Shown here in pieces: positions 11,803 through 31,399 of a DNA stretch of 64,000 bases. A program made the position numbers and the translations under genes. Each line of letters begins with the position of its first letter. Positions within the stretch are counted from its first letter, which is position 1. The notes under the pieces were generated by a model, which was not told the origin of the DNA, did no database searches, and saw nothing but the letters and a program-made list of their open reading frames with translations. The DNA lies in assembly GCF_003318255.1 (NCBI RefSeq), contig NZ_QOCF01000014.1, positions 186,001-250,000 on the forward strand. The letters run 5' to 3'. The stretch is from Ruegeria sp. A3M17. GTDB taxonomy: Bacteria; Pseudomonadota; Alphaproteobacteria; Rhodobacterales; Rhodobacteraceae.

Positions 11803-14800
11803 TTACGCAATCAGGTTTTGGTCGATCACCTCGAACGAAAATTCGTCGACTGTAAACATGGTGTCGTCGATCGCTGACAGCTCTACCGCATCAAAGGTTG
11901 TGCGCCCGAGTGAGCCCGAGAAATCACCGTCGTCGGCATTCGCCACCATGGTGTCGACAAGAACACCGTCATCGTAGAAGGCAACCTCGACTTCACCGCT
12001 GCCGTGACTGTCGCCAAAGCTGAAGATGAACTCCACTGCTTCCTGGTCCGCGTCTTCCAGCGCAATTCTGAGGCTTTCGTCACCGTCAACCGATGCAGCA
12101 TCGCGGCTAAACAACGAGTCGCCGAATGAGAACACGCCAATCGCGCCATGTTTGATCGCAACCAGTTCAAAATTGGTCGGATCAACCGCATCCACTTTGA
12201 TACCTACGTCCGAAAATGTGAGGCTGTTGCGCACCGGGCCAAGCCTGTCGACATCCACAACTTCGCCATCGATGCTTTCAAAGGCCTTGGTTTTGAACCA
12301 GCGGCCCGCTTCGAACTCAACGGCCAAACTCTGGGTTTCTGGAATGAACAGGCTTGCCACCATGGGATCGTGATCCGAGGCGCGCCCGCTGGTTGCTGCG
12401 AACTCTGAGTTGACGTGAACGATGTCAACCAGTGCCCCGGAATGCAGATCCTCGGACACCAGAATATGGTCCAACGATTGGCTGTTGCCCTGAAACTCAA
12501 AGCTATAACGTTCGTCTTCCGGGATATCGTTTGTCAGGTTGACGAGGTCGGTATTGGCCTCAAGGTCAGCTACGGGTGAGACAAATTCAAACTCGTTGAA
12601 GTCACCCAACACAACCGCATTGGCGCCATCACCCAGTCCATTGACGAAATCCTGAACGGCTTGGCTCTGGGCCTGGCGCTCATCCAGACTGCCGTTTACA
12701 TCAACGTCTTCTTGGCGAGCGGCAAAGTCCTGTTCGGTCCCCAGAATAGGCGCGGACCCACCTTTGGATGAAAAGTGGTTATTGACCACCGTGACGGTTT
12801 CACCGTTGAAAACAAAATCAGCGACCAGCGGCAAACGCGCGCCCTCAAAGGCCTCGCCTTCACCTTGCCCACCGATGGTCTGCGCGGATCCTTCCACTAA
12901 CGAGACACGATCAGGATTGTAGAGAAAGGCGGTGCGGATATTGCCGCCTGGCTGACCCCCGGATGTTCCGTCCCCGATAAAGGTGTTGTCGATCACCTCA
13001 TAAGCCGGGCCACCCGCCGCCAGGATAGCCGCGGCCAGTTCCGCCAGGGTTTCCGACGCCGAGACGGTTCCGTCATTGTCCGATCCCGAATTGTCCTGCA
13101 CCTCTTGCAGACCAATGATGTCCGGGCTGTTGAGGTTATTGGTGATCTGCTCGGCAATGGCTGTAAACCGACCGTCGGCAACGTCCTGGTCGTCGTCGCC
13201 ATCATTGGGGTCGAGGTTAAGAACATTGTATGTGGCAATCGTCAGCTCGTTGCTTGAACTGGCGAGTGTGGTCGTTTCCTGTTCCAACCCGGCTGACTGG
13301 ATATTCGCTGTAAAATCCTCGGTCGGCAGGATTTCGTAATTTCCGAAACTATAGCCCACCACACCCGTGACGTCGCCAAGGTGATCGCCGACATTCACCG
13401 TGGGAAAGTCGAAATCGAAAATCCCACTGTCTTCGTCGATCTGGATTTTCTCAGGATTGAAGTCGTCTGGTGAGATATTGAGCGTTCCGCGCTCTGAAAG
13501 TCCGGTTGCGCCACTGCCCTGATCGGCAACCGCAAAGATTTCACCGAACCGGCTGGTTCCGCTGACGGCTTGCAAATCCGTTGCAGTCACGCGCATCCCT
13601 TCCAGGCTTTCGAAGAAGTCGATGCCATCCTGGGTTGGATCGAATGAGGCAAACGCATCATCGTCGATGCTTTGGTTGGGCACCGCCCGCTCACCCGGAT
13701 CATTGCCAATCAGAACCGCTTCGGGCAGCGCATTGCCCGATGACTGCACCTCAAGGTTAAAGACATTGGTCAGTTGGGTGGTCGGCAGGTTGCCACTGCC
13801 TGTGCCGCCGGGAAAGAATTCGGCAACGGTTCCGCCCACGGAAATGGCGTCACCTACTGACACTATAGGGCTTGATCCGGTGAACACGAAAATCGCGTCC
13901 GAGGTCGCATCGTTTCCGTCGCCTTCCGGATCCTGAAGATAGAATCCGTTGGAATCTACCGCAGTGACGATGCCACTGGTTGAAACCATATCGCCCAGAA
14001 CGTTTGATGGGCCGGCAGGCAAGTCCTCGAAGAATTCGGCAACCGTTTGCCCATCTGCCAAAACAAACTCCGACACATGGCCTGAGCCCTGGATTTCATA
14101 GATCGATACGATTTCGATGTCGCTGGCCGAGATGGACACCTCGACAACAGGGGCCAGAATACCGTCGAAAGCAGGATCGCCCGAGGTTACCGTGTGCTGA
14201 ATGTCCACAACCTCGGCTGCTTCGGGCAGGTCGTCGTCAACGGCGGTGACTGCGACTTGTTGAGGCTGGTCAAAATTGGTCGCGTCAAACACCAATTCGG
14301 TTGGTGCAACGTCAAGATCAGCTCCTGCGGCTATGGTGATCGTGACGGGTTGCTCGGGCGCGACAGACAACGTGACTTCATATGAATCCGCCATACCCCC
14401 TTCATCGGCCGCCAGGTCCAGATCATTTATGACGACCGATGGCGAGGGCGCGGCATCCGTGACCGTAAAACCCGTAGGCTCGATATCTTCAATCCTGGAG
14501 TTATTGGTCGTCCAGTTGGCGGGATCGTTAATGGCGGCCTGCAATTCAGCTTTGGTACCAGTAAGCGGGCCGCTATAAACGCCATTGTCGGTTTCAGGGA
14601 TGGCAATTGCGCTGGTACCTACGGTCAGACCCGCGGGCAGTGCAGAGGTATTCGACGATATTGCGTCAGCCTCATACCCGTTTCCATTGAAATGAACTGA
14701 TGCGACAAAAGAAGGTGCAGCGTCATCACCTTGGTAGGCGTGAATCTGATCGCCGCTGGCCGAGAAATTTGGACCGGTAAATGCAGGGTTTATCACTGTA

Positions 14801-15003
14801 CCCGCAGCGATGTTTGCCGGCGCCGTCCAGACGAATACCCCCTCGTTGCTGCGGAACCCACCGGCCGCGAACCAACCGTTGTCGGTGAATTTGACCTCGG
14901 TTCCCGCCTCAATGTCAGTCAAAGCAACAAATGTGAACTCGTCGGGATTGTCCGAATTGAACCCAGTAAACGCAATATCACCCGCAGCCAATGTAGTAAC
15001 CAT
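11803..15003 (-). CDS. Large extracellular endonuclease of the ExeM/NucH type
   Basis: 1066 residues from the ATG at 15003 (AGCGAGG six bases upstream); an ATG at 15045 would add 14 charged residues. Modules in order: an N-terminal lamin-tail-like domain (AGDIAFTGFNSDNPDEF), a Calx-beta-like segment near residues 190-290, an OB-fold region of the ExeM/YhcR type (SGIVTAVDSNGFYLQDP) and an endonuclease/exonuclease/phosphatase domain at roughly residues 585-885. The catalytic motifs are visible: IATYNVLNL, IIGLQEVQD, VLGDFNEF and SDHDPM. The protein is very acidic and has no classical signal peptide, which with the C-terminal extension suggests type I secretion (inference). Likely role: degrading extracellular DNA for nutrients or biofilm turnover. 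Confidence 0.85.
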   Translation of the reverse strand: MVTTLAAGDIAFTGFNSDNPDEFTFVALTDIEAGTEVKFTDNGWFAAGGFRSNEGVFVWTAPANIAAGTVINPAFTGPNFSASGDQIHAYQGDDAAPSFVASVHFNGNGYEADAISSNTSALPAGLTVGTSAIAIPETDNGVYSGPLTGTKAELQAAINDPANWTTNNSRIEDIEPTGFTVTDAAPSPSVVINDLDLAADEGGMADSYEVTLSVAPEQPVTITIAAGADLDVAPTELVFDATNFDQPQQVAVTAVDDDLPEAAEVVDIQHTVTSGDPAFDGILAPVVEVSISASDIEIVSIYEIQGSGHVSEFVLADGQTVAEFFEDLPAGPSNVLGDMVSTSGIVTAVDSNGFYLQDPEGDGNDATSDAIFVFTGSSPIVSVGDAISVGGTVAEFFPGGTGSGNLPTTQLTNVFNLEVQSSGNALPEAVLIGNDPGERAVPNQSIDDDAFASFDPTQDGIDFFESLEGMRVTATDLQAVSGTSRFGEIFAVADQGSGATGLSERGTLNISPDDFNPEKIQIDEDSGIFDFDFPTVNVGDHLGDVTGVVGYSFGNYEILPTEDFTANIQSAGLEQETTTLASSSNELTIATYNVLNLDPNDGDDDQDVADGRFTAIAEQITNNLNSPDIIGLQEVQDNSGSDNDGTVSASETLAELAAAILAAGGPAYEVIDNTFIGDGTSGGQPGGNIRTAFLYNPDRVSLVEGSAQTIGGQGEGEAFEGARLPLVADFVFNGETVTVVNNHFSSKGGSAPILGTEQDFAARQEDVDVNGSLDERQAQSQAVQDFVNGLGDGANAVVLGDFNEFEFVSPVADLEANTDLVNLTNDIPEDERYSFEFQGNSQSLDHILVSEDLHSGALVDIVHVNSEFAATSGRASDHDPMVASLFIPETQSLAVEFEAGRWFKTKAFESIDGEVVDVDRLGPVRNSLTFSDVGIKVDAVDPTNFELVAIKHGAIGVFSFGDSLFSRDAASVDGDESLRIALEDADQEAVEFIFSFGDSHGSGEVEVAFYDDGVLVDTMVANADDGDFSGSLGRTTFDAVELSAIDDTMFTVDEFSFEVIDQNLIA

Positions 15004-15045
15004 GTGAGCCTCGCTTTTTGAATTGGTGAATGAACGGCGGTCCAT

Positions 15046-16214: not shown

Positions 16215-17264
16215 ATGTCCCTATTGCAGACCATTACCCGTAGAGCTGCCCTGCTTTCTGTTGCCGCCGTCGCATTGACCGCGGGAACCGCAAATGCGGG
16301 CGATGTAAAAATTGGGTTCCTGCTGAAAACCATGCAGGAAGAACGCTACAAGCGTGACCGCGCTGCATTTACTGCGAAAGCAGAGGAGTTGGGTGCTGAA
16401 GTCATCTTTGATTCAGCAAACAATGATGAACTGACCCAGCTGGCGAAATTCGAAAACATGCTTGCCAAGGGTGCAGAGGTTATTGTGTTGCAGCCTGTGA
16501 ATACTGGTACTGCCGGAAGCATGGTCAGCATGGCCAACAGCGAGGGCGTCCGCGTTGTTGGGTATGACTCAATGCTGGTGGACGGGCCGTTGGATGCGAT
16601 GGTTATGCAGGACAGCTGGGCTGTCGGTCGCTTGCAGGGCGAAGCCATGGTTGAATGGCTCACCGACAAGAATGGAGAGGTTTCCGGAAAGATCGCTCTA
16701 ATTCAAGGCCAGCCTGGCGACTCCAACGCTATTGCCATGAGCAGCGGCGTTCTGGAAATCGTTGAGGCCAATCCAGGATTGGAACTGGTGACCAACCAGG
16801 CACACGAAGGGTGGTCGTCGGAAAAGGCCATGGCAACTGCTGAAAACACGCTGACCTCAAACAGCAACGGCATTGATGCCTTTATCGCCAACAACAGTGG
16901 CATGGCCCGAGGTGTTATCGCGGCGCTGGAAGCACAGGGTTTGGCGTCATCAGATAAGGTGTTTGTCGCAGGTTCTGACGCCGATCTGGCCAATATCCAA
17001 TACGTTGCGCAAGGCAAGCAGGCGGTTGAAATCTGGAAGCAGATCGATCCGCTGGCCGAAACTGCGGCAGAAGTGGCCGTGGCATTGGCAAAGAACCCGG
17101 ACACGGCACCGGCTGATTTGGTTGAAGTCGACAAGGTCATCAACAATGGCTTTGCGGATGTGCCGACGATCGTGACCCCGATCACGCTTGTGACACAGGG
17201 CAACATTGATGACACCATCATCGCTGGCGGCTTCTATTCCAAGGAAGAAGTCTACGGGAACTGA
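16215..17264 (+). CDS. Sugar ABC transporter substrate-binding protein (CUT2, XylF/RbsB-like), copy 1
   Basis: 349 residues from the ATG at 16215 with GGAGG at ideal spacing. A signal peptide (TRRAALLSVAAVALTAGTANAG) leads to a two-lobed Peripla_BP_4-type periplasmic binding protein: IGFLLKTMQEERYKRDRAAF at the start, LQPVNT, VVGYDSM, NNSGMARGVIAAL and VAGSDADL in the sugar-contacting loops. It delivers a sugar to the ATPase/permease encoded downstream. Closest in style to XylF, but the downstream GH65 enzyme argues that the ligand need not be xylose. A large stem-loop follows, as is common after highly expressed binding-protein genes. Confidence 0.9.
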   Translation: MSLLQTITRRAALLSVAAVALTAGTANAGDVKIGFLLKTMQEERYKRDRAAFTAKAEELGAEVIFDSANNDELTQLAKFENMLAKGAEVIVLQPVNTGTAGSMVSMANSEGVRVVGYDSMLVDGPLDAMVMQDSWAVGRLQGEAMVEWLTDKNGEVSGKIALIQGQPGDSNAIAMSSGVLEIVEANPGLELVTNQAHEGWSSEKAMATAENTLTSNSNGIDAFIANNSGMARGVIAALEAQGLASSDKVFVAGSDADLANIQYVAQGKQAVEIWKQIDPLAETAAEVAVALAKNPDTAPADLVEVDKVINNGFADVPTIVTPITLVTQGNIDDTIIAGGFYSKEEVYGN

Positions 17265-17282
17265 TCCCCGGGTCTGTTTCCT

Positions 17283-17354
17283 GAAGGAGGGCGTTTCGCC
17301 ATTTAGCTCCCAATGCGTGTACTCCCCGCGCGCGGTTTCATGGTGCCCTCCTTC
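17283..17354 (+). other. Intercistronic stem-loop after the binding-protein gene
   Basis: GAAGGAGGGC (17283-17292) and GCCCTCCTTC (17345-17354) pair perfectly across a 52-base loop, 18 bp after the stop codon. Such structures often stabilise the binding-protein part of the mRNA or cause partial termination, so that it outnumbers ATPase and permease. The function here is inferred. Confidence 0.6.
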
Positions 17355-17431
17355 CTTAGATACCTCGGTCAAAATTGCCGCGCAGGGTGGGGATTGTCTG
17401 AAACACCTTTCTGAATGTGATGGGAAAAAGC

Positions 17432-18964
17432 ATGTCTGAAGTCGTCCTGAAAATGCAGGGTATCATCAAGGATTTTCCCGGTGTTCGCGCCCTGAACAAT
17501 GTCAACTTCGAAGCCCGCTCTGGCGAACTTCTGGCGTTAATGGGGGAAAACGGAGCAGGCAAATCCACGTTGATGAAAGTGCTCAGTGGGGTTTGGCCCT
17601 ATCCAACCTACGAAGGCGATATCTATTTGCGGGGCGAGAGGGTTCGCTTTGCCAACACTAAGGAAGCCGAGGCCGCCGGAATTGGCATCATCTATCAGGA
17701 ACTCAATCTGATCCCCGGCTTATCCGTTGCGGAAAACATATTTCTTGATCGGCAGTTCACCGATGCCAAGGGCCGGATCAATTGGAACCAGACCTTTGCC
17801 GAAACACAGAAGCTGCTGACCGAACTGGGCATCAATGACATTCGCCCAACCGATCTGGTGCAGAACATCACCGTGGGCAAGCAGCAGATGGTCGAGATCG
17901 CCAAGGCTTTGTCACTGAAGGCAGAAATCCTTGTACTGGATGAACCGACCTCGGCACTGACGGATAAAGAAGTCAAAGATCTTTTCCGCATTATCCGCAA
18001 GCTGAAGGCCGATGGCGTTTGCATGTGCTACATCTCGCACAAAATGGAAGAGATTGAGCAGATTGCCGACCGGATTGCGGTTCTGCGTGATGGTCAAACC
18101 ATCGGTGAAGTTACTCCGATCGCAGATATCACTCTTGATCAAATCATCGCCCGAATGGTTGGCCGCGATATCAAAGACATGTTCCCGAAGGTCGATTTTA
18201 CCCCAGGTGAAGTAACCCTGGAAGTTAACGATCTGTCTGTCACGAACCCCGATATGCCGGGGAGTTATTTGGTTAAGAATGCCAGCTTTGTTGCCCGCAA
18301 GGGTGAAATTCTGGGTATCTCGGGGCTGATGGGTGCGGGTCGAACCGAATTGGTTGGTGGCGTGTTTGGCGCCTACCCGGACCAGACAACAGGCGAGGTT
18401 AAGCTGAACGGGCAGAAGCTGGAGATCAAATCGCCGAAAGACGCGATTGAAGCCGGCATTGCCTTGCTGACCGAAGATCGCAAGGCACTGGGTCTGTTTC
18501 TGGACAAGTCTATTTCGTTCAACACGACGATTTCGTCGCTTGAGACGATCAGCTCGAAAGTTCTGGGCATCATCAACACCCAGCAAGAGCGCAAAGTCGT
18601 TAAGGAATACGTCGATCAGCTTGGTGTGAAAACGCCGTCAATTGACACGGTTATCGGCACGCTCAGCGGGGGTAACCAGCAAAAGGTCATTCTGGGTAAA
18701 TGGCTGAATTCCAAGCCAGATGTGTTCATTCTGGATGAACCCACGCGCGGGATCGATATCGGCGCCAAGGTTGAGATTTACAAACTGCTGAACGAGTTGG
18801 TTCAGCAAGGCGTGACCGTCATCATGATTTCATCTGAGCTGCCTGAGGTTTTGGGCATGTGCGATCGGATTCTGGTGATGTGCGAAGGCGAGATTGTGTC
18901 GAACTTTGAACGGGACGACGCAAAGAAAGAAGCAATCATGGCGTATGCCACCGGCAGCGCGTAA
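17432..18964 (+). CDS. Sugar ABC transporter ATP-binding protein (XylG-like)
   Basis: About 510 residues with two fused ABC domains, the CUT2 arrangement. The first domain has an intact Walker A (GENGAGKST) and LVLDEPTSAL; its signature is the variant NITVGKQQMVEIAKAL. The second has a degenerate Walker A (GLMGAGRTEL), the signature LSGGNQQKV and ILDEPTRGID. This asymmetry is normal for XylG/RbsA. It powers import through the permease encoded 13 bp downstream. The start at 17432 (SMSEVV...) has only a modest GGGA upstream; in-frame ATGs at 17417 and 17420 are no better. Confidence 0.9.
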   Translation: MSEVVLKMQGIIKDFPGVRALNNVNFEARSGELLALMGENGAGKSTLMKVLSGVWPYPTYEGDIYLRGERVRFANTKEAEAAGIGIIYQELNLIPGLSVAENIFLDRQFTDAKGRINWNQTFAETQKLLTELGINDIRPTDLVQNITVGKQQMVEIAKALSLKAEILVLDEPTSALTDKEVKDLFRIIRKLKADGVCMCYISHKMEEIEQIADRIAVLRDGQTIGEVTPIADITLDQIIARMVGRDIKDMFPKVDFTPGEVTLEVNDLSVTNPDMPGSYLVKNASFVARKGEILGISGLMGAGRTELVGGVFGAYPDQTTGEVKLNGQKLEIKSPKDAIEAGIALLTEDRKALGLFLDKSISFNTTISSLETISSKVLGIINTQQERKVVKEYVDQLGVKTPSIDTVIGTLSGGNQQKVILGKWLNSKPDVFILDEPTRGIDIGAKVEIYKLLNELVQQGVTVIMISSELPEVLGMCDRILVMCEGEIVSNFERDDAKKEAIMAYATGSA

Positions 18965-18977
18965 GGGAGGAAACAAA

Positions 18978-20141
18978 ATGAGTGCTGACAGCAACGTTGC
19001 AGGTGTTGGCGTCAACGGCGCCAAGGAAAACCACCTGATAAACTTCATCAAGGACAACGCGACGCTGATTGCGCTGATCGTGCTGGTCATCGGGCTTAGC
19101 TTTGCTGACGATGCGTTCTTTACCGCGCGCAACCTCAGCAACCTGTCCCGTCAGGTGACCATCATCGGGATCATTGCCGTCGGTATGACCATGGTCATCC
19201 TCATTGCCGGTATAGACCTTTCTGTGGGCTCTGTCGTCGGCTTATCGGCTGTGGTGTGTACACTGATGATGCAATACGGAGTACCAACAGTACTCGCGGT
19301 TCCGGCTACCCTTTTGGTCGTTGGCGTTGGTATCGGCGCGTGGAACGGGTTCTGGATAGCCAAGTTCAACATACCACCCTTCATCATAACCCTTGGCATG
19401 CTGACCATCGCACGTGGTTTGGCACTGACCTTGACCAACGGCAGTTCTGTACCGGTAACAAGTGACGTGTTTCCGCTAATTGGTGGGGCTTATATCCCGC
19501 CGATGATGTCCAGCATCGTTTTGATCGTGTGCGCTGCGCTTGCCGTCTATTCGATCTTCCGGGATGTGCAGCAAAGCCGGGCGCACGGCGTCGAAGTCAA
19601 CATGCAGGAATTGCTGGTCAATGGTGCCGTTATGATCGGTGGTTTTGCTTTGGCTTTCCACGTGTTCACCAGCTACAAGGGTATCCCAGTTCCTGTTGCG
19701 ATCTTTGCAGTCATAGCGTTTGCCGGGATCTACACGCTCAATAGCACCCGCTTTGGCCGCCGCCTCTACGCTCTTGGTGGAAACGAAGATGCGGCACGCT
19801 TGTCCGGTATCAATGTCGTTCGCACCAAGATGATCGTTTACACAGTCATCTCGGTACTGTCGGCACTGGCCGGGATTATCCTTGCCTCGCGTTTGAATGG
19901 TGCATCCCCCAACCTGGGTACCATGTTCGAATTGGACGCGATTGCCGCAGTTGTCATTGGTGGCACAAGTCTGGCGGGTGGCTCGGGCAGGGTGAGCGGT
20001 ACCATCATCGGTGCCTTGCTGATCGGCGTTCTGAACAACGGCATGAGCCTGCTGGGAGTGGTGACGTTCTATCAGCTGATCATCAAAGGCCTGATCATCA
20101 TCCTCGCCGTGTGGTTCGATGTGATGCAGAAAAAGAAATGA
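18978..20141 (+). CDS. Sugar ABC transporter permease (XylH-like)
   Basis: 387 residues from the ATG at 18978, preceded by GGGAGG; an earlier in-frame start lies inside the ATPase gene. About ten membrane helices with the BPD_transp_2 family landmarks: GIIAVGMTMVILIAGIDLSVGSVVGLS, NIPPFIITLGMLTIARGLAL, YALGGNEDAARLSGI and GGTSLAGGSGRVSGTIIGALLIGVLNNGMSLLG. It forms the inner-membrane channel for the sugar. Follows the ATPase by 13 bp; a stem-loop separates it from the second binding-protein gene. Confidence 0.92.
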   Translation: MSADSNVAGVGVNGAKENHLINFIKDNATLIALIVLVIGLSFADDAFFTARNLSNLSRQVTIIGIIAVGMTMVILIAGIDLSVGSVVGLSAVVCTLMMQYGVPTVLAVPATLLVVGVGIGAWNGFWIAKFNIPPFIITLGMLTIARGLALTLTNGSSVPVTSDVFPLIGGAYIPPMMSSIVLIVCAALAVYSIFRDVQQSRAHGVEVNMQELLVNGAVMIGGFALAFHVFTSYKGIPVPVAIFAVIAFAGIYTLNSTRFGRRLYALGGNEDAARLSGINVVRTKMIVYTVISVLSALAGIILASRLNGASPNLGTMFELDAIAAVVIGGTSLAGGSGRVSGTIIGALLIGVLNNGMSLLGVVTFYQLIIKGLIIILAVWFDVMQKKK

Positions 20142-20150
20142 GGTGGACCA

Positions 20151-20174
20151 GCCCCCGGTTAGCGTACCGGGGGC
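20151..20174 (+). other. Stem-loop between permease and second binding-protein gene
   Basis: GCCCCCGGT and ACCGGGGGC form a perfect 9-bp stem with a 6-base loop. No U-tract follows, so attenuation or mRNA processing within the operon is more likely than full termination. Confidence 0.55.
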
Positions 20175-20220
20175 ACCGCCAAAATCCCCGAAATCCTGTA
20201 TGACAATTGGGAGGTGAGCG

Positions 20221-21288
20221 ATGGTACCGTCCATTATAGCAACCTTACGCACAAATGGCCTCAGAGTGTTGGGCTTGGCCGGCCTTCTATCGGCATCTTT
20301 GCCTATGATTGTGGCAGCGCAAGACGACGTTACAATCGGATTCCTGCTCAAGACCATGCAGGAAGATAGATATCAGTCTGACAAATCTTTGTTCACTGCA
20401 CGTGCGGAATCCCAAGGGGCAAACGTGATATTCGACAGCAGCGGCAATGATCCATTGCGCCAGTTGCAGCAAGTCGAGGAAATGCTGGATCTCGGAGTGG
20501 ACGTCTTGGTTCTGCAACCCGTCAACACCGCGACTGCCGGAGCCCTTGTTAATTTGGCCCATGATAAGGGCGTCAAGGTTGTCGGATATGACTCGATGCT
20601 TCAGGGCGGTCCACTTGATGTCATGGTTATGCAGGACAGCTGGGCTGTGGGGCAGTTGCAGGCCGAGGCCATGGTTGCCTGGTTGAATGATACAAATGGT
20701 GGGGTGGCAGGTCGCATCGCCCTGATCCGAGGTCAACCCGGCGACGCCAATGCTGAAGCACTGAGTAGCGGCGTGCTTAAGGTCATTGCGGATTATCCGG
20801 GGATAGAACTTGTCGCTGATCGCAGCCACGTTGACTGGTCATCAGACATGGCGCGAGACACTACCGAAAATCTACTGGTCGAATATGACAACGATATCGA
20901 TGCCTTTATCGCCAATAACAGCGGGCTTGCATTCGGTGTTCTGGCGGCATTGTCAGACGAGGACCTGGCATCAACGGATCAGGTTTTTGTCGCCGGATCA
21001 GATGCTGACTTGAGAAATGTCAGGCTGGTCGCCACCGACGTACAAGCGCTGGAGATCTGGAAACAGATAAAACCGTTGGCTTATCGGGCGGCCGATATCG
21101 CCGTCAATATCGCGCAATCACCGGACGCGGAAATCACTGACCTGATTGGTGAACATACACTGATAGACAACGGCTTCGCGGAAATCCCGACGGTAATTAC
21201 CCCTGTCCTTGCAGTAACGAAAGACACGATCGATGCCACCGTAATCGAAGGTGGGTTCTATACCAGCGAGCAAATCTATCAGAACTGA
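20221..21288 (+). CDS. Second CUT2 sugar-binding protein, paralogue of the operon's first gene
   Basis: 355 residues with a signal peptide ending near IVAAQDD and GGGAGG at good spacing before the ATG. It matches the protein at 16215 along its whole length (IGFLLKTMQE, LQPVNTA, VVGYDSML, MVMQDSWAVG, FIANNSG, VAGSDADL, EGGFYTSEQIYQN versus AGGFYSKEEVYGN) but is clearly diverged. No second permease or ATPase accompanies it, so both proteins probably feed the same membrane complex. It might widen ligand range or signal the sugar. The duplication within one operon is unusual and is listed as a finding. Confidence 0.88.
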   Translation: MVPSIIATLRTNGLRVLGLAGLLSASLPMIVAAQDDVTIGFLLKTMQEDRYQSDKSLFTARAESQGANVIFDSSGNDPLRQLQQVEEMLDLGVDVLVLQPVNTATAGALVNLAHDKGVKVVGYDSMLQGGPLDVMVMQDSWAVGQLQAEAMVAWLNDTNGGVAGRIALIRGQPGDANAEALSSGVLKVIADYPGIELVADRSHVDWSSDMARDTTENLLVEYDNDIDAFIANNSGLAFGVLAALSDEDLASTDQVFVAGSDADLRNVRLVATDVQALEIWKQIKPLAYRAADIAVNIAQSPDAEITDLIGEHTLIDNGFAEIPTVITPVLAVTKDTIDATVIEGGFYTSEQIYQN

Positions 21289-21348
21289 AGCTGTTATAGT
21301 GACGTTGGCGTCAGTCGGAAAAGCAGAGCAAACATGTAAGGGACCGAA

Positions 21349-22332
21349 ATGTCGGACAAGATCAATGTCGCAGTACTTGGCCCGATCCCAAGGGACAAGA
21401 TCACCAGCTACCAAGGTGAGAAATTCGAAAAGTTTGGCTGCGCGGTTTACACGGCGGTCTGCATGTCCTCACTGGCTGGTCAGGGATCAAAAATAAATGT
21501 GGTCAGTCACGTACGAGAAACAGACGTCGAAAATATCCGGGGCTTACTGTCCGAATTTCGCCATCTTGATGTTAGCCATATTACTGGAGATGCGGATCAG
21601 GGCGCAGTGATTGATCTGGTCTATGTCGACCAGAACCGGCGCAACGAGAAGCAAACGGGTTTCATGAATCCAATCTTGCCAGAAGATATTGAAGACCTGA
21701 TGGATTGCGATGCCTTCGTTTTCGTTCCGATAACCGACTTTGAAGTGCCGCTGGAGACAATCCGTTACATCAAGACTAACAGCGATGGTCTGGTTGTGTT
21801 TGATGCGCATGGCCCCACCAGCGGCTGCTCGGCGCATGGCGAACGGTATCACAAATTCTGGATCGACCGAGATCGGTGGCTTCCACATATCGATCTGCTG
21901 AAGATGAACCTGGAAGAAGCTCAATGCAGTTGGTTCAAGGGTGAATACGGTTCAGATGAACTGCAAGACATAAGCGAACTAACGATGGACCAGCTGCCCA
22001 AGTTTGCGCGGCACTGCCTGGATCTTGGTGTCAAAGCGCTCTACGTCACGCTGGATCAGCATGGGTGCGCCGTCTACCACAAAGACGAGACCGGCCGGAT
22101 GCGTGAGCACTTGGTCAAACGCGTGCTTGTCGAGGATGTAGTCGACACCACCGGCTGTGGCGATAGCTTTGCTGGTGGCTTGGCCTTTGGCTACCTCAAG
22201 ACCCGCGATTTCGTCAAAGCCTGCCAGTTCGGCAACTGTGCGGGGGCGCAGCGCTGCTCGAGCAGCGAGTTGGACGTCTACGGATCGTTGGAAGAAACCG
22301 AACGTCAGATTGCCGAAACCTACGGCGACTGA
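21349..22332 (+). CDS. PfkB-family carbohydrate kinase
   Basis: 327 residues. The C-terminal PfkB signature is VVDTTGCGDSFAGGLAFGYL, with the catalytic Asp of GCGDSF; LLKMNLEEAQ is the family's nucleotide-side strand. The usual N-terminal GG switch is not obvious (GCAVYTAVCMSSLAGQG stands in its place), so it is not a standard ribokinase or fructokinase. It phosphorylates a sugar or polyol in the cytoplasm; the substrate is unknown. AGGGA precedes the ATG. Between the transporter and GH65 genes it is well placed to phosphorylate the acceptor moiety released by phosphorolysis. Confidence 0.82.
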   Translation: MSDKINVAVLGPIPRDKITSYQGEKFEKFGCAVYTAVCMSSLAGQGSKINVVSHVRETDVENIRGLLSEFRHLDVSHITGDADQGAVIDLVYVDQNRRNEKQTGFMNPILPEDIEDLMDCDAFVFVPITDFEVPLETIRYIKTNSDGLVVFDAHGPTSGCSAHGERYHKFWIDRDRWLPHIDLLKMNLEEAQCSWFKGEYGSDELQDISELTMDQLPKFARHCLDLGVKALYVTLDQHGCAVYHKDETGRMREHLVKRVLVEDVVDTTGCGDSFAGGLAFGYLKTRDFVKACQFGNCAGAQRCSSSELDVYGSLEETERQIAETYGD

Positions 22333-22364
22333 ACTTTCCGAAACATCACCGAATGGAGCCTGAC

Positions 22365-24713
22365 ATGCAGACAATGCTGAGCAGTAGCGATTGGCTGATC
22401 GAAGAAACGCAATTCAGTTTAGACGATGCGAACTTCAAGGAGACCATTTTCACGGTCGGCAACGGTTATCAGGGCACACGCGGATCGCTGGAAGAGGGCC
22501 ATAAAGGAGAGCTGTCTGGCACCTATCTGGCAGGTGTATACGATCACCATGACTCGACTGTGATCGATCAGGTCAATGTTCCTACCTGGTTGCCACTTCG
22601 GGTTCGCGTGGAAGGTGAGGCTCTGGATGTCCAAACGTGCAAAATTGTCGAACATAAGCGCGTATTGGATCTACAGACCGGTTTTTTGCATCGCGATACC
22701 GTTTTTGAAGACAGTACGGGCCGTCGCACTCGCATCAACAGCATCCGGTTTGCCAGTTTTGCCGATCAGCACATCAGCGGCATTCGCCTGATCGTCACGC
22801 CAGTGAACCATTCGTCCGAGATCACCGTCGAAAGCGCGCTTGATGCTCATCGATACAACCTGGACCGCCTGCCAGCATATCAGGGAAACCCTGTCTTCCA
22901 TCCCGAGGTCAAATGGGAGAAGTGGGCCAAAAGCCGACACCTGAAGGTCACTCAGTCACGTGCAAGCAGCGATGCGTCCTATATCGAAGCTCAGACTCTG
23001 GACACCGGCGTTACGATTGGCATGGCGACTACCTTGGATAGTCCTCCCTTCAGCGAGTTCAAAGGCGCAAACCGTGATTATGAGCAGGTTTCGCAAGCCG
23101 TTTCAGTTGATGCGCTCAACGGGCAATGTCTGACCTTCGAAAAGCTGGTGTCAATTTACACGTCACGAGACCTGAACGGTGCAGAGGTGGCGGCAAAATG
23201 CGAAGCGTCGCTGGAGACAGCACAAGCCAAGGGGTTCTCAACCTGTCTGAGCGAAAGCGCAGCAGCTTGGCGAGCGAAATGGGACGCTTGTGATTGCGTG
23301 GTGACGGGTGATCCTGAAGCGACGCGAGCAATGCGTTTCAATATCTATCATCTGCTGATTGCCGCCAACGAAAACGACCCACGCGCGAACATCGGCGCCA
23401 AGTCCATGTCTGGCGAAGGGTATAAAGGTCACGTCTTCTGGGACACCGAAATTTTCCTGCTACCGTTTTACATCTTCACACAGCCGGAGACGGCCAAAGC
23501 GCTTCTGAAATACCGTTACAACACTTTGAAGGGCGCGATTGAAAATGCCCGAATGAACGGATTTGAAGGCGCCCAATACGCTTGGGAATCCGCTGATACC
23601 GGGGTGGAGACAACGCCAAAATGGACGGCGGACGGTGCGAACCGGATTTGGACCGGAGAAGAAGAGATCCACGTCACCGCTTGTGTCGCTTATGGGATCC
23701 TCAGCTACGTTGCGGCGACGGGTGATCACGAATTCCTTCGTGATTTCGGGGCAGAAGTTTTGTATCAGACCAGCCGGTTCTGGATCAGTCGGCTGGAATG
23801 GAACGAAAACAAGGATCGGTATGAGCTGACCAACGTAATCGGGCCGGACGAGTTTCATGAACATGTCGACAACAACACGTTCACCAACCGAATGGCGAAG
23901 TGGCATCTTGAGCAATCGGCACGTGTTTTCAGAGTACTCAGTGAAAGTTCGTCTGAGGTTCATGACGAATTGCGGGTTCGGTTGGATTTGACTGAAAAAG
24001 AAGTGGATCAGTGGTTGGAAACGGCCGAAAAGATCTATGTTCCATTTGATCCGTCCCGCAATCTGATCGAACAGTTTGAGGGTTATTTCCAGCTCAAGGA
24101 TATTCCCATCACCGAATGGGACAAAAACCGTATGCCCGTCTATCCCGAAGGGCATGACCACTTCTCACTGAACGGTTCAATGCTGCTCAAGCAACCAGAC
24201 GTGATCATGTTGAACTATCTCTTACCTGACGAGTTTTCAGACGAAGTCAAAGCGGCGAATTACGCGTTTTACGAAAAACGTACGATGCACAAATCGTCTC
24301 TCAGCCCGGCCATTCATTCAATCATGGGGATCGAAGTCGGCGACATATCTTCTGCCCATCGCTATTTTGATCGCTCGGCCTTTGTCGATCTGATCAACAA
24401 TCAAGGCAACACGCAGGACGGGATGCATATCGCATCGGCCGGCGGCACCTGGCAGTCGCTTGTGTGTGGATTTGGCGGGTTCCGGGTCAAGCATGGGAAA
24501 ATGACGTTCAAACCCTGGCTGCCCGAAGCATGGACTGCCATCCGGTTTAACCTGAAGTGGCAGGGGAATGACGTCGAGGTTACGATTTCTCATGACGAAT
24601 GTCGCTTTCGGTTCATTGCCCCATCCGGCAGTCGAGAAGAGATCGAAGTAATGGGACGCTCTGTTACTTTGGTCGCCGGAGAGGACGTTGTCTTCGCGCC
24701 GCAACCAGCGTAA
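22365..24713 (+). CDS. GH65 glycoside phosphorylase (maltose/kojibiose/trehalose phosphorylase family)
   Basis: 782 residues, a normal length for GH65. These inverting phosphorylases cleave alpha-glucosides with phosphate to beta-glucose-1-phosphate plus an acceptor. Visible landmarks: TVGNGYQGTRGSLEEG (N-terminal domain), GHVFWDTEIFLLPFY, the catalytic-acid motif GPDEFHEHVDNNTFTN with Glu496, HKSSLSPAIHS in the phosphate-binding part and GNTQDGMHIASAGGTWQ. No signal peptide, so cytoplasmic. The start at 22365 has GGAG six bases upstream; the ATG 12 bases earlier overlaps that site. Specificity (trehalose, kojibiose, nigerose, maltose, glucosylglycerol or other) cannot be read from these motifs. 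The beta-phosphoglucomutase nearby completes the pathway to glucose-6-phosphate. Confidence 0.9.
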   Translation: MQTMLSSSDWLIEETQFSLDDANFKETIFTVGNGYQGTRGSLEEGHKGELSGTYLAGVYDHHDSTVIDQVNVPTWLPLRVRVEGEALDVQTCKIVEHKRVLDLQTGFLHRDTVFEDSTGRRTRINSIRFASFADQHISGIRLIVTPVNHSSEITVESALDAHRYNLDRLPAYQGNPVFHPEVKWEKWAKSRHLKVTQSRASSDASYIEAQTLDTGVTIGMATTLDSPPFSEFKGANRDYEQVSQAVSVDALNGQCLTFEKLVSIYTSRDLNGAEVAAKCEASLETAQAKGFSTCLSESAAAWRAKWDACDCVVTGDPEATRAMRFNIYHLLIAANENDPRANIGAKSMSGEGYKGHVFWDTEIFLLPFYIFTQPETAKALLKYRYNTLKGAIENARMNGFEGAQYAWESADTGVETTPKWTADGANRIWTGEEEIHVTACVAYGILSYVAATGDHEFLRDFGAEVLYQTSRFWISRLEWNENKDRYELTNVIGPDEFHEHVDNNTFTNRMAKWHLEQSARVFRVLSESSSEVHDELRVRLDLTEKEVDQWLETAEKIYVPFDPSRNLIEQFEGYFQLKDIPITEWDKNRMPVYPEGHDHFSLNGSMLLKQPDVIMLNYLLPDEFSDEVKAANYAFYEKRTMHKSSLSPAIHSIMGIEVGDISSAHRYFDRSAFVDLINNQGNTQDGMHIASAGGTWQSLVCGFGGFRVKHGKMTFKPWLPEAWTAIRFNLKWQGNDVEVTISHDECRFRFIAPSGSREEIEVMGRSVTLVAGEDVVFAPQPA

Positions 24714-24766
24714 CGATTGCCGTTTTGAGTCAGGCGGTAGTAGCCGACCAAGCCGAGGTGATGCGG

Positions 24767-25936
24767 TCAGTCCGTAAGTGCTTCAGCAACTCGATTGTGC
24801 AACTGTTCCGCGGCGGCATGATCAATGAGCAATTCGTTTACAAGACCTCTGGAGATTAGTTCAAACACCGTATCACCACGTTCTTTTTGAATTGCTACGA
24901 CGACAACGCCGCTTTGATTGGGATCGTCAAAAGCCCGATCTGCTATTGCCTTTACGTGCTCTGTTTTGATCCCGGTCCAAAGCCCGTTCAATTCGTCAAT
25001 CAGGTCCATTTTGATTTGGGATATACCCGTTCTGGGAATCAAAATGCCACCAAGGTCACCCACAACCAGTTGCCTGAGGTCATCAGCCCTCAAACCGCCT
25101 GCCTGAACCAATTCTTCGAAACTACCCAGAACCGGGGTGCTTGAAGACCCTACGCTGGAGATCAGCATGTCCATTTTGTCAATCAAAGCGTCAGGTCCTG
25201 AAAACACGCGGTGAAATCCCGGCGTGTCAGAGATGTACTGCCAAATGGAGCGGCGCATGGTCTCGTCATAGTGGCGGGGAATATATGCCGGGAAGCCGGT
25301 CAGCTGGGGGCTTTCCTCCTGCTTTTCGTTAAACAGCTCATCAAACGTTCCGGCAAGCCGGCTGGCAGAGTATCCGTGCTGCGCCAACGACACCAATTCG
25401 GCGCAAACCGCCGCGAATTCTGTCTTGCGCGATTTATCTATGGGCTGCCTTGAGGCGGCGATCCCCTCCGCCAAAGACTTGATTGTCCGTCCCCAAGCAA
25501 CGCCGATGACGTCTGATTTTTCGATCAGTTCTGTTAATCGTCCAGAGGCGGTTCGTCCAAATCTGGTACGGCGCTGCGCCAGAGCCGCTTCGGTGTTCCC
25601 CGGTCCACTTTCGAAGACGCCAAGCCGGGGTGACCTGAGACCGTTCCTGACGCAATATTCTTTCAGGTCCGAATTCAGCCCAGAAGGAGCCAGTAATTCG
25701 TCCATCTGGCGGATCCATTCATCCGAGAATTGCTCTTTGACGAAGCGCTGTTCGATGACGAGGTAGTTTTGCCGCTCAGCATGTTTCAGCAATCGCGACA
25801 CATGCGGTTGAGACAGGCCACCAAGAACGACGCCGATCTCCACCTGTGACATGTTGTGCGTTGCACGCATATAAGCAGCGCACTGGGAACGTTCTTCGAA
25901 GGGTAGTTTCTTTACGTCAATCATTTGGCCCAACAT
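24767..25936 (-). CDS. SorC/DeoR-type sugar-responsive transcriptional regulator
   Basis: About 389 residues. The N-terminal helix-turn-helix is MSQVEIGVVLGGLSQPHVSRLLKHA (recognition helix around SQPHVSRLL); the rest matches the SorC-type sugar-phosphate-binding domain (SDVIGVAWGRTIKSLAEGI, DLGGILIPRTGI, GVVVVAIQKERGDTVFELISRGLVNELLIDHAAAEQL). Such regulators usually respond to a phosphorylated sugar. It is convergent with the GH65 gene (53 bp apart) and divergent from the beta-phosphoglucomutase gene. Two ATGs are possible (25936, 25924), neither with a strong ribosome site. Likely the local regulator of the alpha-glucoside system. Confidence 0.85.
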   Translation of the reverse strand: MLGQMIDVKKLPFEERSQCAAYMRATHNMSQVEIGVVLGGLSQPHVSRLLKHAERQNYLVIEQRFVKEQFSDEWIRQMDELLAPSGLNSDLKEYCVRNGLRSPRLGVFESGPGNTEAALAQRRTRFGRTASGRLTELIEKSDVIGVAWGRTIKSLAEGIAASRQPIDKSRKTEFAAVCAELVSLAQHGYSASRLAGTFDELFNEKQEESPQLTGFPAYIPRHYDETMRRSIWQYISDTPGFHRVFSGPDALIDKMDMLISSVGSSSTPVLGSFEELVQAGGLRADDLRQLVVGDLGGILIPRTGISQIKMDLIDELNGLWTGIKTEHVKAIADRAFDDPNQSGVVVVAIQKERGDTVFELISRGLVNELLIDHAAAEQLHNRVAEALTD

Positions 25937-25962
25937 TGTCCAGTAAGTCGATCCTGGCGGTA

Positions 25963-25989
25963 TGAATAACTATGCCAGATAAACATTCA
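25963..25989. promoter_or_regulatory. Candidate operator of the SorC-type regulator
   Basis: A 27-bp inverted repeat: TGAATAACTAT (25963-25973), GCCAG, ATAAACATTCA (25979-25989). The TGAAT/ATTCA and TAT/ATA blocks are perfectly symmetrical. It lies in the divergent interval between the regulator and the beta-phosphoglucomutase gene. A near-identical half-site, TGAATAAGTAT, occurs at 16033-16043 about 170 bp before the first transporter gene, with a weaker inverted partner at 16055-16065. Confidence 0.45.
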
Positions 25990-26062
25990 CATGCCAGTCA
26001 ATTGAAGAAAAATCCTGACATGCTACGTGTTTCTGACACTCGCTCGAACCAGGAGATTCAGC

Positions 26063-26725
26063 ATGCCAACCAAAGGACTAATCTTCGACCTCGATGGTGT
26101 TTTGGTCGACACCGTGCCGGCGCATTTTGCGGCCTGGAAACGCATGTTTGAAGAACACGGGTATGAGTTTGGCAAGCCTGAATATCGACGCCTTGTCGAC
26201 GGTCGCCCCCGCTACGACGGAGCTCGTGCGGTCATGACACGGCATTCGGAAAATGAAGTCAGAACCGCCGCCGACAAAAAAAATGACTACTATGTTGAAA
26301 TGATCGAGCGAGGAAAGTTCCGGGTTTTCGATGCAGCGGTTCAACTTGTCAGGCAATGCCAGTCCGAGGGTTACGGGCTGGCAGCTGCTTCCAGCAGCGC
26401 CAACGTTCGATCCGTTCTTGAAAAAGCCGGGCTGTTGGATGCCTTCCCGGTTGTAATCGGAGGCGACGATGTCGAAAATGGGAAACCCAACCCGGATATT
26501 TTTCTCGCCGCAGCCAGCGGACTTGGTCTGACGGTGGACGAATGTGTTGTGATTGAGGATTCTACGTCCGGGGTCGAAGCGGCGAAGAATGGTGGTTTCT
26601 ATTGTATTGGTCTTCTTCACGAAGAACACGAAAGTGAATTAACTGCCGCAGATTATGTCATTTCTTCTCTGGCTGAGATTGACATCGAGCGGATAGATGA
26701 ATCGAGGTCCGAGGTGCATGTTTGA
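26063..26725 (+). CDS. pgmB: Beta-phosphoglucomutase (HAD superfamily)
   Basis: 220 residues from the ATG at 26063 with AGGAG eight bases upstream; a longer in-frame start lacks this. HAD motifs: nucleophile and acid/base Asp in IFDLDGVLVDTVPAHF, the cap domain with an R-x-x-x-DGRPRYDG-like loop, AAASSSAN (motif II Ser), KPNPDIF (motif III Lys) and VIEDSTSGVEAA (metal-binding acids). It converts beta-glucose-1-phosphate, the product of GH65 phosphorolysis, to glucose-6-phosphate in the cytoplasm. A generic HAD sugar phosphatase is the alternative, but the GH65 neighbour makes the mutase more likely. Divergent from the SorC regulator across the candidate operator. Confidence 0.85.
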   Translation: MPTKGLIFDLDGVLVDTVPAHFAAWKRMFEEHGYEFGKPEYRRLVDGRPRYDGARAVMTRHSENEVRTAADKKNDYYVEMIERGKFRVFDAAVQLVRQCQSEGYGLAAASSSANVRSVLEKAGLLDAFPVVIGGDDVENGKPNPDIFLAAASGLGLTVDECVVIEDSTSGVEAAKNGGFYCIGLLHEEHESELTAADYVISSLAEIDIERIDESRSEVHV

Positions 26726-26909: not shown

Positions 26910-27542
26910 TCAGATTTCGATCGCTTCAGCAATAGCGAGTGCGTCCTCAAGTTCAACGCCAAGATATCGGACCGTGCTGTCCATCTTGGTATGCCCAAGC
27001 AGGAGCTGAACGGCGCGCAGGTTGCCGGTCTTCTTGTATATTTGGGTTACCTTGGTCCGTCGCATGGAATGGGTGCCATAGGCGGTTGCTTCCAACCCGA
27101 TTGAAGTGACCCAATCCCTAACGATCCGGGCATACTGCCGTGTTGAGATATGTAGGCGTTCGTGAAATCGACCTGGCCAAAGAAACTCAGATCCGACCAT
27201 CAGCGGATCCTCCATCCATTTCGCGACCGACGCCCGAGTGCCCTCAGAAATCTCGAAGCGAACAGGTTTTTGTGTTTTGCTCTGCAGAACTGAGGCGCGT
27301 TCTTTGATCTGGCCGGACGCCATGACATCCACCACCTGCATCCGGACGAGATCACAGCCGCGAAGCTTGCTGTCGATTGCCATGTTGAAGAGAGCGAGGT
27401 CCCGATGGTTTTCGGCCAGCTCCAGGCGAACTCTGATCGCCCAGACATGTTTTGGCTTCAGCGGGCGCTTCTGGCCGACAATTCGACCCTTGTTCCAAGC
27501 AGGCCGAAGCGCACGAATGGCGGGTAAGTTTGGTGTTTCCAT
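26910..27542 (-). CDS. Tyrosine recombinase/integrase, short form
   Basis: 210 residues, essentially a stand-alone catalytic domain with only about 55 residues before it. The active-site set is complete: Arg61 (KLRGCD), His158 and Arg161 (HSMRRTK), His184 (GHTKMDS) and nucleophile Tyr193 (VRYLGV). It would catalyse site-specific strand exchange; lacking the usual arm-binding and core-binding domains, it differs from phage-type integrases. A nearly identical but 5'-truncated copy in the same orientation lies at 35593-36044, so the two bracket about 8 kb. Probably functional as far as can be seen. Confidence 0.88.
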   Translation of the reverse strand: METPNLPAIRALRPAWNKGRIVGQKRPLKPKHVWAIRVRLELAENHRDLALFNMAIDSKLRGCDLVRMQVVDVMASGQIKERASVLQSKTQKPVRFEISEGTRASVAKWMEDPLMVGSEFLWPGRFHERLHISTRQYARIVRDWVTSIGLEATAYGTHSMRRTKVTQIYKKTGNLRAVQLLLGHTKMDSTVRYLGVELEDALAIAEAIEI

Positions 27543-30664: not shown

Positions 30665-30778
30665 TTGTGGGGGCGACGTTAGCGATGCTCCCGTCAAATA
30701 TCCACCAGAAAAACCGTTGCGGAAAACTTCATTAGCTTGCAGGGTATGGCCTATCTAATCTGGCGGAGTCCGAGCCGA

Positions 30779-31399
30779 ATGCTCATTGGCTATGCAAGGG
30801 TGTCGAAAGCAGACGGGAGCCAGCTCCTGGATTTGCAGCGCGATGCTCTGATTGATGCTGGTGTCGCGGCAGATCGCATTTATGAAGACAAGGCGTCCGG
30901 ACGAAAGGATCACAGACCTGGCCTCGATGCTTGTCTTAAGGCGCTTCAGCCAGGAAACACGTTTGTCGTTTGGAAGCTCGACAGGTTGGGCCGCGATCTC
31001 AAGCACCTGGTCGCAACGGTCGATGAATTGCGCGACCGGGGTGTCGGCCTCCGCGTGCTGGCCGGGGCCGGTGCTGAGATTGATACGACGACGGCCAACG
31101 GGCGGCTGGTCTTTGGCATCTTTGCCAGTTTGGCTGAGTTCGAACGTGAGTTGATCGCCGAGCGCACCCGAGCCGGTCTTGCTGCCGCGCGTGCCAGAGG
31201 CCGCAAAGGTGGGCGGCCGCGCAAGATGGATGTCACCATGTTGCGCATGGCGATGACGGCGATGGCTGACCGGGAAACTCACGCGTCCGACTTGGCCAAA
31301 CGGCTCGGAATTACAACAACCACGCTTTACGAGTACGTCAATGGCGATGGCAGCGTGAAAGCGCCAGGTCAGAAATTGTTGGATGCGGACGCCTCATGA
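30779..31399 (+). CDS. Serine recombinase / resolvase (Tn3 type)
   Basis: 206 residues from the ATG at 30779, which gives the expected N-terminus MLIGYARVSK with the nucleophilic Ser. Further landmarks: DLQRDALIDAGV, DKASGRKDHRPGLDACL, FVVWKLDRLGRDLKHLV, the long E-helix beginning RLVFGIFASLAEFERELIAERT and a C-terminal helix-turn-helix (HASDLAKRLGITTTTLYEYV). It resolves cointegrates made by the transposase. Earlier in-frame starts (TTG 30737, ATG 30746) add a non-conserved leader. Overlaps the transposase start by four bases. Confidence 0.9.
   Translation: MLIGYARVSKADGSQLLDLQRDALIDAGVAADRIYEDKASGRKDHRPGLDACLKALQPGNTFVVWKLDRLGRDLKHLVATVDELRDRGVGLRVLAGAGAEIDTTTANGRLVFGIFASLAEFERELIAERTRAGLAAARARGRKGGRPRKMDVTMLRMAMTAMADRETHASDLAKRLGITTTTLYEYVNGDGSVKAPGQKLLDADAS

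Follow-up and report, generated by a model that had tools for sequence, protein, structure and literature searches.

A kinase of the PfkB/ribokinase fold encoded by Ruegeria sp. A3M17 probably serves the pathway shared by glycoside hydrolase family 65 (GH65) phosphorylases and beta-phosphoglucomutase (beta-PGM), and its genomic associations tentatively point to beta-glucose-1-phosphate as its substrate. The kinase gene lies in a 64,000-nucleotide stretch of contig NZ_QOCF01000014.1 (positions 186,001 to 250,000 of the forward strand), hereafter the window, within an eight-gene module at window 16215-26725 of a 4.44 Mb genome. In the proposed scheme, a CUT2-type ATP-binding cassette (ABC) transporter equipped with a pair of XylF-like binding proteins would import an alpha-1,2-glucoside, in the simplest case kojibiose or short kojioligosaccharides. 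Judging from its clade and conserved residues, the GH65 enzyme would then release beta-glucose-1-phosphate and an acceptor, probably glucose. The kinase, acting as an accessory of the GH65/beta-PGM pathway and not as an aglycone kinase, would use ATP to phosphorylate beta-glucose-1-phosphate at position 6, and the resulting beta-glucose-1,6-bisphosphate (beta-G16BP) would prime and fully activate beta-PGM. This last step is the least secure, and the probability of the account as a whole, a kojibiose-type module with a bisphosphate-forming kinase, is put at roughly 0.4. Somewhat more tentative still is its extension, again drawn from genomic association, to the entire PfkB-type family as a dedicated beta-glucose-1-phosphate 6-kinase (beta-G16BP synthase) that primes beta-PGM in alpha-glucoside phosphorolysis. 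The enzymes and the transporter belong to known kinds; the point of interest is the kinase family with its predicted role.

Scanning genomes with an alignment of the kinase yielded at least 443 confirmed relatives, the best 80 of which, a set that leans to close relatives, define the loci considered here (L numbers). GH65 genes occur within 3.5 kb of the kinase in 38 of the 80 loci, and are kojibiose-type in 22, maltose-type in 13, glucosylglycerol-type in two and both kojibiose- and maltose-type in L045. These three types fall in four clades of the GH65 tree, the GH65 of L051 grouping with E. coli YcjT. The maltose-phosphorylase (MP)-like proteins are 46-50% identical to the L. brevis maltose phosphorylase (LbMP) and carry the motif KVMN, the glucosylglycerol-phosphorylase (GGP)-like genes of L013 and L041 are convergent to the kinase, and the GH65 of L080 matches in two pieces. 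In L045, a contig of a Bacteroidota metagenome-assembled genome (MAG), the kinase, a kojibiose-type GH65, beta-PGM and a maltose-type GH65 truncated by the contig end follow one another in a row. A beta-PGM gene, taken as a 90-bit match within 5.5 kb and located on the opposite strand in L034 and L078, is near the kinase in 28 of the 38 loci. The partners thus appear to tie the kinase to the GH65/beta-PGM pathway whatever the acceptor type; common to them are beta-glucose-1-phosphate, beta-PGM and, for the kojibiose and maltose types, glucose.

The association extends to loci that have no GH65 gene nearby. The genomes of 41 of these 42 loci were searched (L029 was left out), and 39 encode a GH65 elsewhere; beta-PGM is found in all 41 at E<=1e-25 and in 39 above the cut-off of the beta-PGM equivalog TIGR01990. 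The two genomes lacking GH65 are those of L073, where the contig stops 612 bases past the kinase match with beta-PGM in between, and of L063, where beta-PGM begins 211 bases from a contig start; both absences may be assembly gaps. Nine genomes with GH65 near the kinase were searched in the same way, and GH65 was recovered in all nine and beta-PGM in eight, the genome of L080 being the exception. A sample of 146 Flavobacteriales genomes (its centre included; genomes down to 0.3 Mb, not size-matched) holds GH65 in 56, beta-PGM above the TIGR01990 cut-off in 57 and the kinase in four, and all four kinase-bearing genomes, the chosen centre among them, have both GH65 and beta-PGM. One of the four kinase genes contains an in-frame TAG. 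GH65 occurs in 38/40 kinase genomes versus 55/145 of the sample (Fisher p ~1e-11), a comparison that uses 40 of the 41 genomes, excludes the centre, and takes no account of shared ancestry, mixed taxonomy or genome size. The kinase was not found in 52 of the 56 GH65-bearing genomes of the sample, so that, although apparently tied to the pathway, it would be an accessory to it.

A kinase tree of 62 rows covers 59 of the 80 loci; the remaining three rows are the window and two second copies. The partner label, with "none" counted as a label, changes seven times over the tree. One half (Pseudomonadota, Actinomycetota and Thermodesulfobacteriota) holds 22 of the 24 kojibiose-type partners; the other half, mainly Bacteroidota, holds 13 maltose-type partners, both glucosylglycerol-type partners and the two remaining kojibiose-type partners (L045 and L051). 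Partner switching is therefore modest in number and partly tracks phylum.

Among alpha-phosphohexomutases, a bisphosphate synthase exists. With respect to beta-PGM, PMC7608592 describes beta-G16BP as the only compound that allows the enzyme to reach its maximum rate, and beta-PGM itself as the sole source of this compound in Lactococcus lactis. A kinase that makes beta-G16BP would explain the observed associations. The main competing explanation, rather unlikely in our estimate, is a glucokinase, perhaps anomer-specific, acting on the glucose freed from kojibiose or maltose so that each half of the disaccharide would end up as glucose-6-phosphate within one module. Glucose is indeed the expected acceptor product of the kojibiose- and maltose-phosphorylase-like enzymes, and a protein of an aldose 1-epimerase cluster follows the kinase in L037, L047, L057 and L063, an arrangement that favours a glucokinase over bisphosphate synthesis. 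However, glucose may have another kinase, because 12 of the 13 loci with maltose-type GH65 only have a ROK-type kinase of uncertain sugar next to the kinase and a PF02685 glucokinase is encoded elsewhere in the window genome; a further glucokinase would be redundant. The GGP-like partners in L013 and L041 also speak against a glucokinase, which would not explain why so many GH65 genomes lack the kinase. Bisphosphate synthesis is tentatively the preferred reading; a glucokinase would explain the associations less well.

The sequence-only reading had named the gene families of a contiguous module, and this observation is confirmed. All eight genes are open reading frames (ORFs) in the order given, each matching its named family in profile searches; the likely starts at 16215, 18978, 22365 and 26063 were read off the ORFs.

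16215..17264, plus strand: CUT2 substrate-binding protein 1, XylF/ChvE-like, with an apparent signal peptide; best PDB match the D-xylose-binding protein 3m9w
17417..18964, plus strand: CUT2 ABC ATPase, XylG/GguA-like, by family match
18978..20141, plus strand: CUT2 permease, GguB/RbsC-like; the ORF opens at 18894, with the likely ATG at 18978
20221..21288, plus strand: CUT2 substrate-binding protein 2, Peripla_BP_4/XylF-like; 58% identical to binding protein 1 over 341 residues
21349..22332, plus strand: PfkB/ribokinase-fold kinase; GC replaces GG, with GCGD and NLEE motifs
22353..24713, plus strand: predicted GH65 alpha-1,2-glucoside (kojibiose-type) phosphorylase; likely start 22365
24767..25936, minus strand: SorC-like transcriptional regulator with a partial sugar-binding domain, by family match
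26063..26725, plus strand: beta-PGM-type HAD protein; the ORF opens at 26027, with the likely start at 26063; best PDB match L. lactis beta-PGM, 1lvh

The transporter shows the features of the CUT2 class, namely a double ATPase, a BPD_transp_2 permease and Peripla_BP_4 binding proteins, both of which are XylF-like. An equal gene set is present in L002 and L003 (Ruegeria) and in L004 (a Rhizobiaceae MAG), and the gene order is therefore not due to chance. The regulator gene is on the minus strand, which makes the beta-PGM gene a separate divergent unit. Homology supports the earlier proposal that uptake, GH65 phosphorolysis and beta-PGM form one module.

The GH65 protein, the only one found in a search of the window genome, is very probably an alpha-1,2-glucoside phosphorylase. 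All three of its domains were matched (402 bits for the central domain), and it is 96% identical to a protein named from Ruegeria meonggei. Its best PDB match is the Caldicellulosiruptor kojibiose phosphorylase CsKP (3wiq) with 658 bits, versus 342 for the maltose phosphorylase 1h54 and 335 for BsGGP (4ktp); 310 of 699 aligned pairs (44%) are identical to CsKP. The placement test that the sequence-only reading had proposed was carried out with a maximum likelihood tree of 32 rows (28 GH65s and four references), which contains no trehalose, nigerose or rhamnoside phosphorylases and in which long reference branches leave the deeper order unsure. The window protein groups with CsKP rather than with the maltose or glucosylglycerol phosphorylase: CsKP and 19 rows, the window among them, form a group with support 99/98, and LbMP and BsGGP lie on the other side.

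The active-site residues are consistent with this placement. PMC8626586 gives the contacts to the reducing glucose of kojibiose in FjGH65A numbering and describes them as conserved in CsKP. In the alignment these +1-subsite contacts, CsKP W391, E392 and T417, correspond to W411, E412 and T434 of the window protein. The phosphate-site Ser, Ser, His and Lys described in the same source are present, their exact positions being read from the conserved stretches AKxxxGEGYKGH, KSSLSP and GPDEFHEH. At the six correlated positions for which PMC8537180 gives the kojibiose phosphorylase motif EEAPxx, the window protein reads DEAPWD, CsKP EEAPWE, YcjT EEAPAS, LbMP KVFN-S and BsGGP EIGPHP. The only departure from EEAPxx is Asp for Glu at position 64, and Asp occupies this position in 113 of the 120 homologues listed. 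The substrate is likely an alpha-1,2-glucoside, most simply kojibiose; the difference at position 64 makes the exact acceptor less certain.

The kinase itself shows the ribokinase fold together with the NxxE and GxGD motifs of the PfkB/ribokinase family, and its PF00294 match (E 9e-19) is limited to residues 176-306. As noticed in the sequence-only reading, the N-terminal GG switch is absent: the position reads G30-C31, where Gly is invariant and Cys at least 90% conserved in a 45-sequence alignment that includes the window. By the criteria in PMC5931981, the donor site is of the ATP type (GCGD, NxxE); pyrophosphate as donor was rejected, the RxGRGD motif of that source being replaced by DTTGCGD. 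One source labels the protein "adenosine kinase", a name that was also rejected, as there is no close characterised relative in the PDB and the C-terminal half alone matches. The highest-ranked folds are TM0415 and the archaeal myo-inositol kinase, nearly level with ribokinase, at ~20% identity. Homologues number 2712 at E<=1e-3, the outer ones possibly being other PfkB kinases, and relatives occur in Pseudomonadota, Bacteroidota, Actinomycetota and Thermodesulfobacteriota. Titles and abstract openings in the literature, of incomplete coverage, yielded no description of this kinase together with GH65. The earlier suggestion that marine bacteria have an undescribed pathway here may apply to the kinase; its relatives are also found in Actinomycetota and in Bacteroidota genera that are not restricted to the sea.

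Several observations on the surroundings of the family members were made in passing. L023 and L079, both Gammaproteobacteria MAGs, carry a tandem pair of kinase copies, and PF03632 matches occur in both genomes. A small HAD protein is encoded directly upstream of the kinase in ten Flavobacteriaceae-type loci (L014, L015, L028-L031, L033, L048, L064 and L076), with other neighbours partly conserved, and a GH3 protein directly follows the kinase in L016.

The kinase had earlier been taken to imply a heteroside whose non-glucosyl part, a polyol, inositol or pentose, is phosphorylated after cleavage by GH65. This possibility draws on the adjacency of the two genes, the inositol kinases among the top-ranked folds, Asp at GH65 position 64, the XylF-like binding proteins, glycerol-type genes in some MP operons and the GGP-like GH65s adjoining the kinase in L013 and L041. 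It is weakened by the range of acceptor types among the GH65 partners, MP-like ones included, and by the retention of the kojibiose +1 contacts in the window GH65. Moreover, the inositol contacts of TM0415 reported in PMC5931981, Q141 and R145, correspond in the kinase to H154 and S158, by motif spacing and not by superposition. The aglycone assignment is thus improbable, and the implication drawn from the kinase is not supported.

The HAD protein scores 173 bits against TIGR02009 (cut-off 153) and is the sole HAD in the window genome to exceed that cut-off. Against TIGR01990 it scores 146 bits, below the cut-off of 189, and the label beta-PGM accordingly rests on residues and context. Alignment to 1lvh shows that the positions of D8, D10, H20, R49, S114, K145, E169 and D170 are retained and that the K45 position is Asp. 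The retained set includes the catalytic Asp pair, H20, R49, K145, E169 and D170, and covers the catalytic and the distal-phosphate positions of the L. lactis enzyme.

The assignment of the regulator to the SorC type, made in the sequence-only reading, stands insofar as PF04198 matches above its cut-off (34 bits, cut-off 27); it is thin, as the match covers residues 120-161 only, and the gene is on the minus strand. A PDB sequence search with the regulator gave no match. Related regulators are present in L002-L009, eight of the 80 kinase loci, and none was found in the other 72, some of which are on short contigs. No operator common to the region upstream of binding protein 1 and to the gap between the regulator and beta-PGM genes was found, either in a 16-base scan with 3 mismatches allowed or in a simple search for palindromes. 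Sugar phosphates are common ligands of SorC-type regulators, and the presence of a regulator in those eight loci would fit a kinase whose product, derived for example from beta-glucose-1-phosphate or the disaccharide, is a phosphorylated effector sensed by the SorC-like regulator instead of a metabolic intermediate, yet the 72 loci with no regulator found and the lack of a common operator in the simple scan make this very unlikely.

Of 289 Alphaproteobacteria genomes sampled, 12 contain GH65 and only the window genome was found to have the kinase; the module is therefore sporadic. A gene of the Phage_integrase family adjoins the module at 26910-27542 (minus strand), and ORFs of the same cluster lie near the module in L004 and L005; these integrase-family neighbours suggest a mobile island. 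Among plasmid records, GH65 matches occur in 260, every one below 60% identity, and the single kinase match, from Halomicrobium, is 33% identical over 40% of the query. Farther along the window, positions 30737-33030 encode a resolvase and, after it, a protein whose Mu-transposase C-terminal match is weak and under the cut-off; the two form a transposon-like pair downstream of the module. At 11803-15045 (minus strand) lies a gene for a 1080-residue protein with an endonuclease/exonuclease/phosphatase domain, possibly an extracellular nuclease.

If true, the proposed role would give a function to a kinase family that spans four phyla and would answer how some cells supply the bisphosphate required by beta-PGM. 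Whichever reading holds, the presence of a kinase next to a glycoside phosphorylase does not necessarily reveal what the aglycone is, which calls for caution in operon-based guesses of substrates.

Comparison with known systems shows where the module is conventional and where it departs. The window GH65 resembles CsKP in clade, in the W391/E392/T417 contacts, in the phosphorylase-type stretches and in the xEAPW motif, and differs from it in overall sequence and in having Asp for Glu at correlated positions 64 and 585. The E. coli ycj cluster likewise places a GH65 annotated as kojibiose phosphorylase (YcjT) beside beta-PGM (YcjU) and ABC transporter genes; unlike the window module it is without an annotated kinase and contains YcjM (annotated glucosylglycerate phosphorylase) and glucoside dehydrogenases/epimerase, and YcjT belongs to a different GH65 clade from the window GH65. 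Relative to L. lactis beta-PGM, the window HAD retains the catalytic and distal-phosphate positions but falls under the equivalog cut-off and has Asp at the K45 position, and the window module encodes an additional kinase. TM0415 and the archaeal myo-inositol kinase are the top-ranked folds for this kinase, whereas its low identity to them, the missing RxGRGD and, as judged by motif spacing, the replaced inositol-contact Gln and Arg set it apart.

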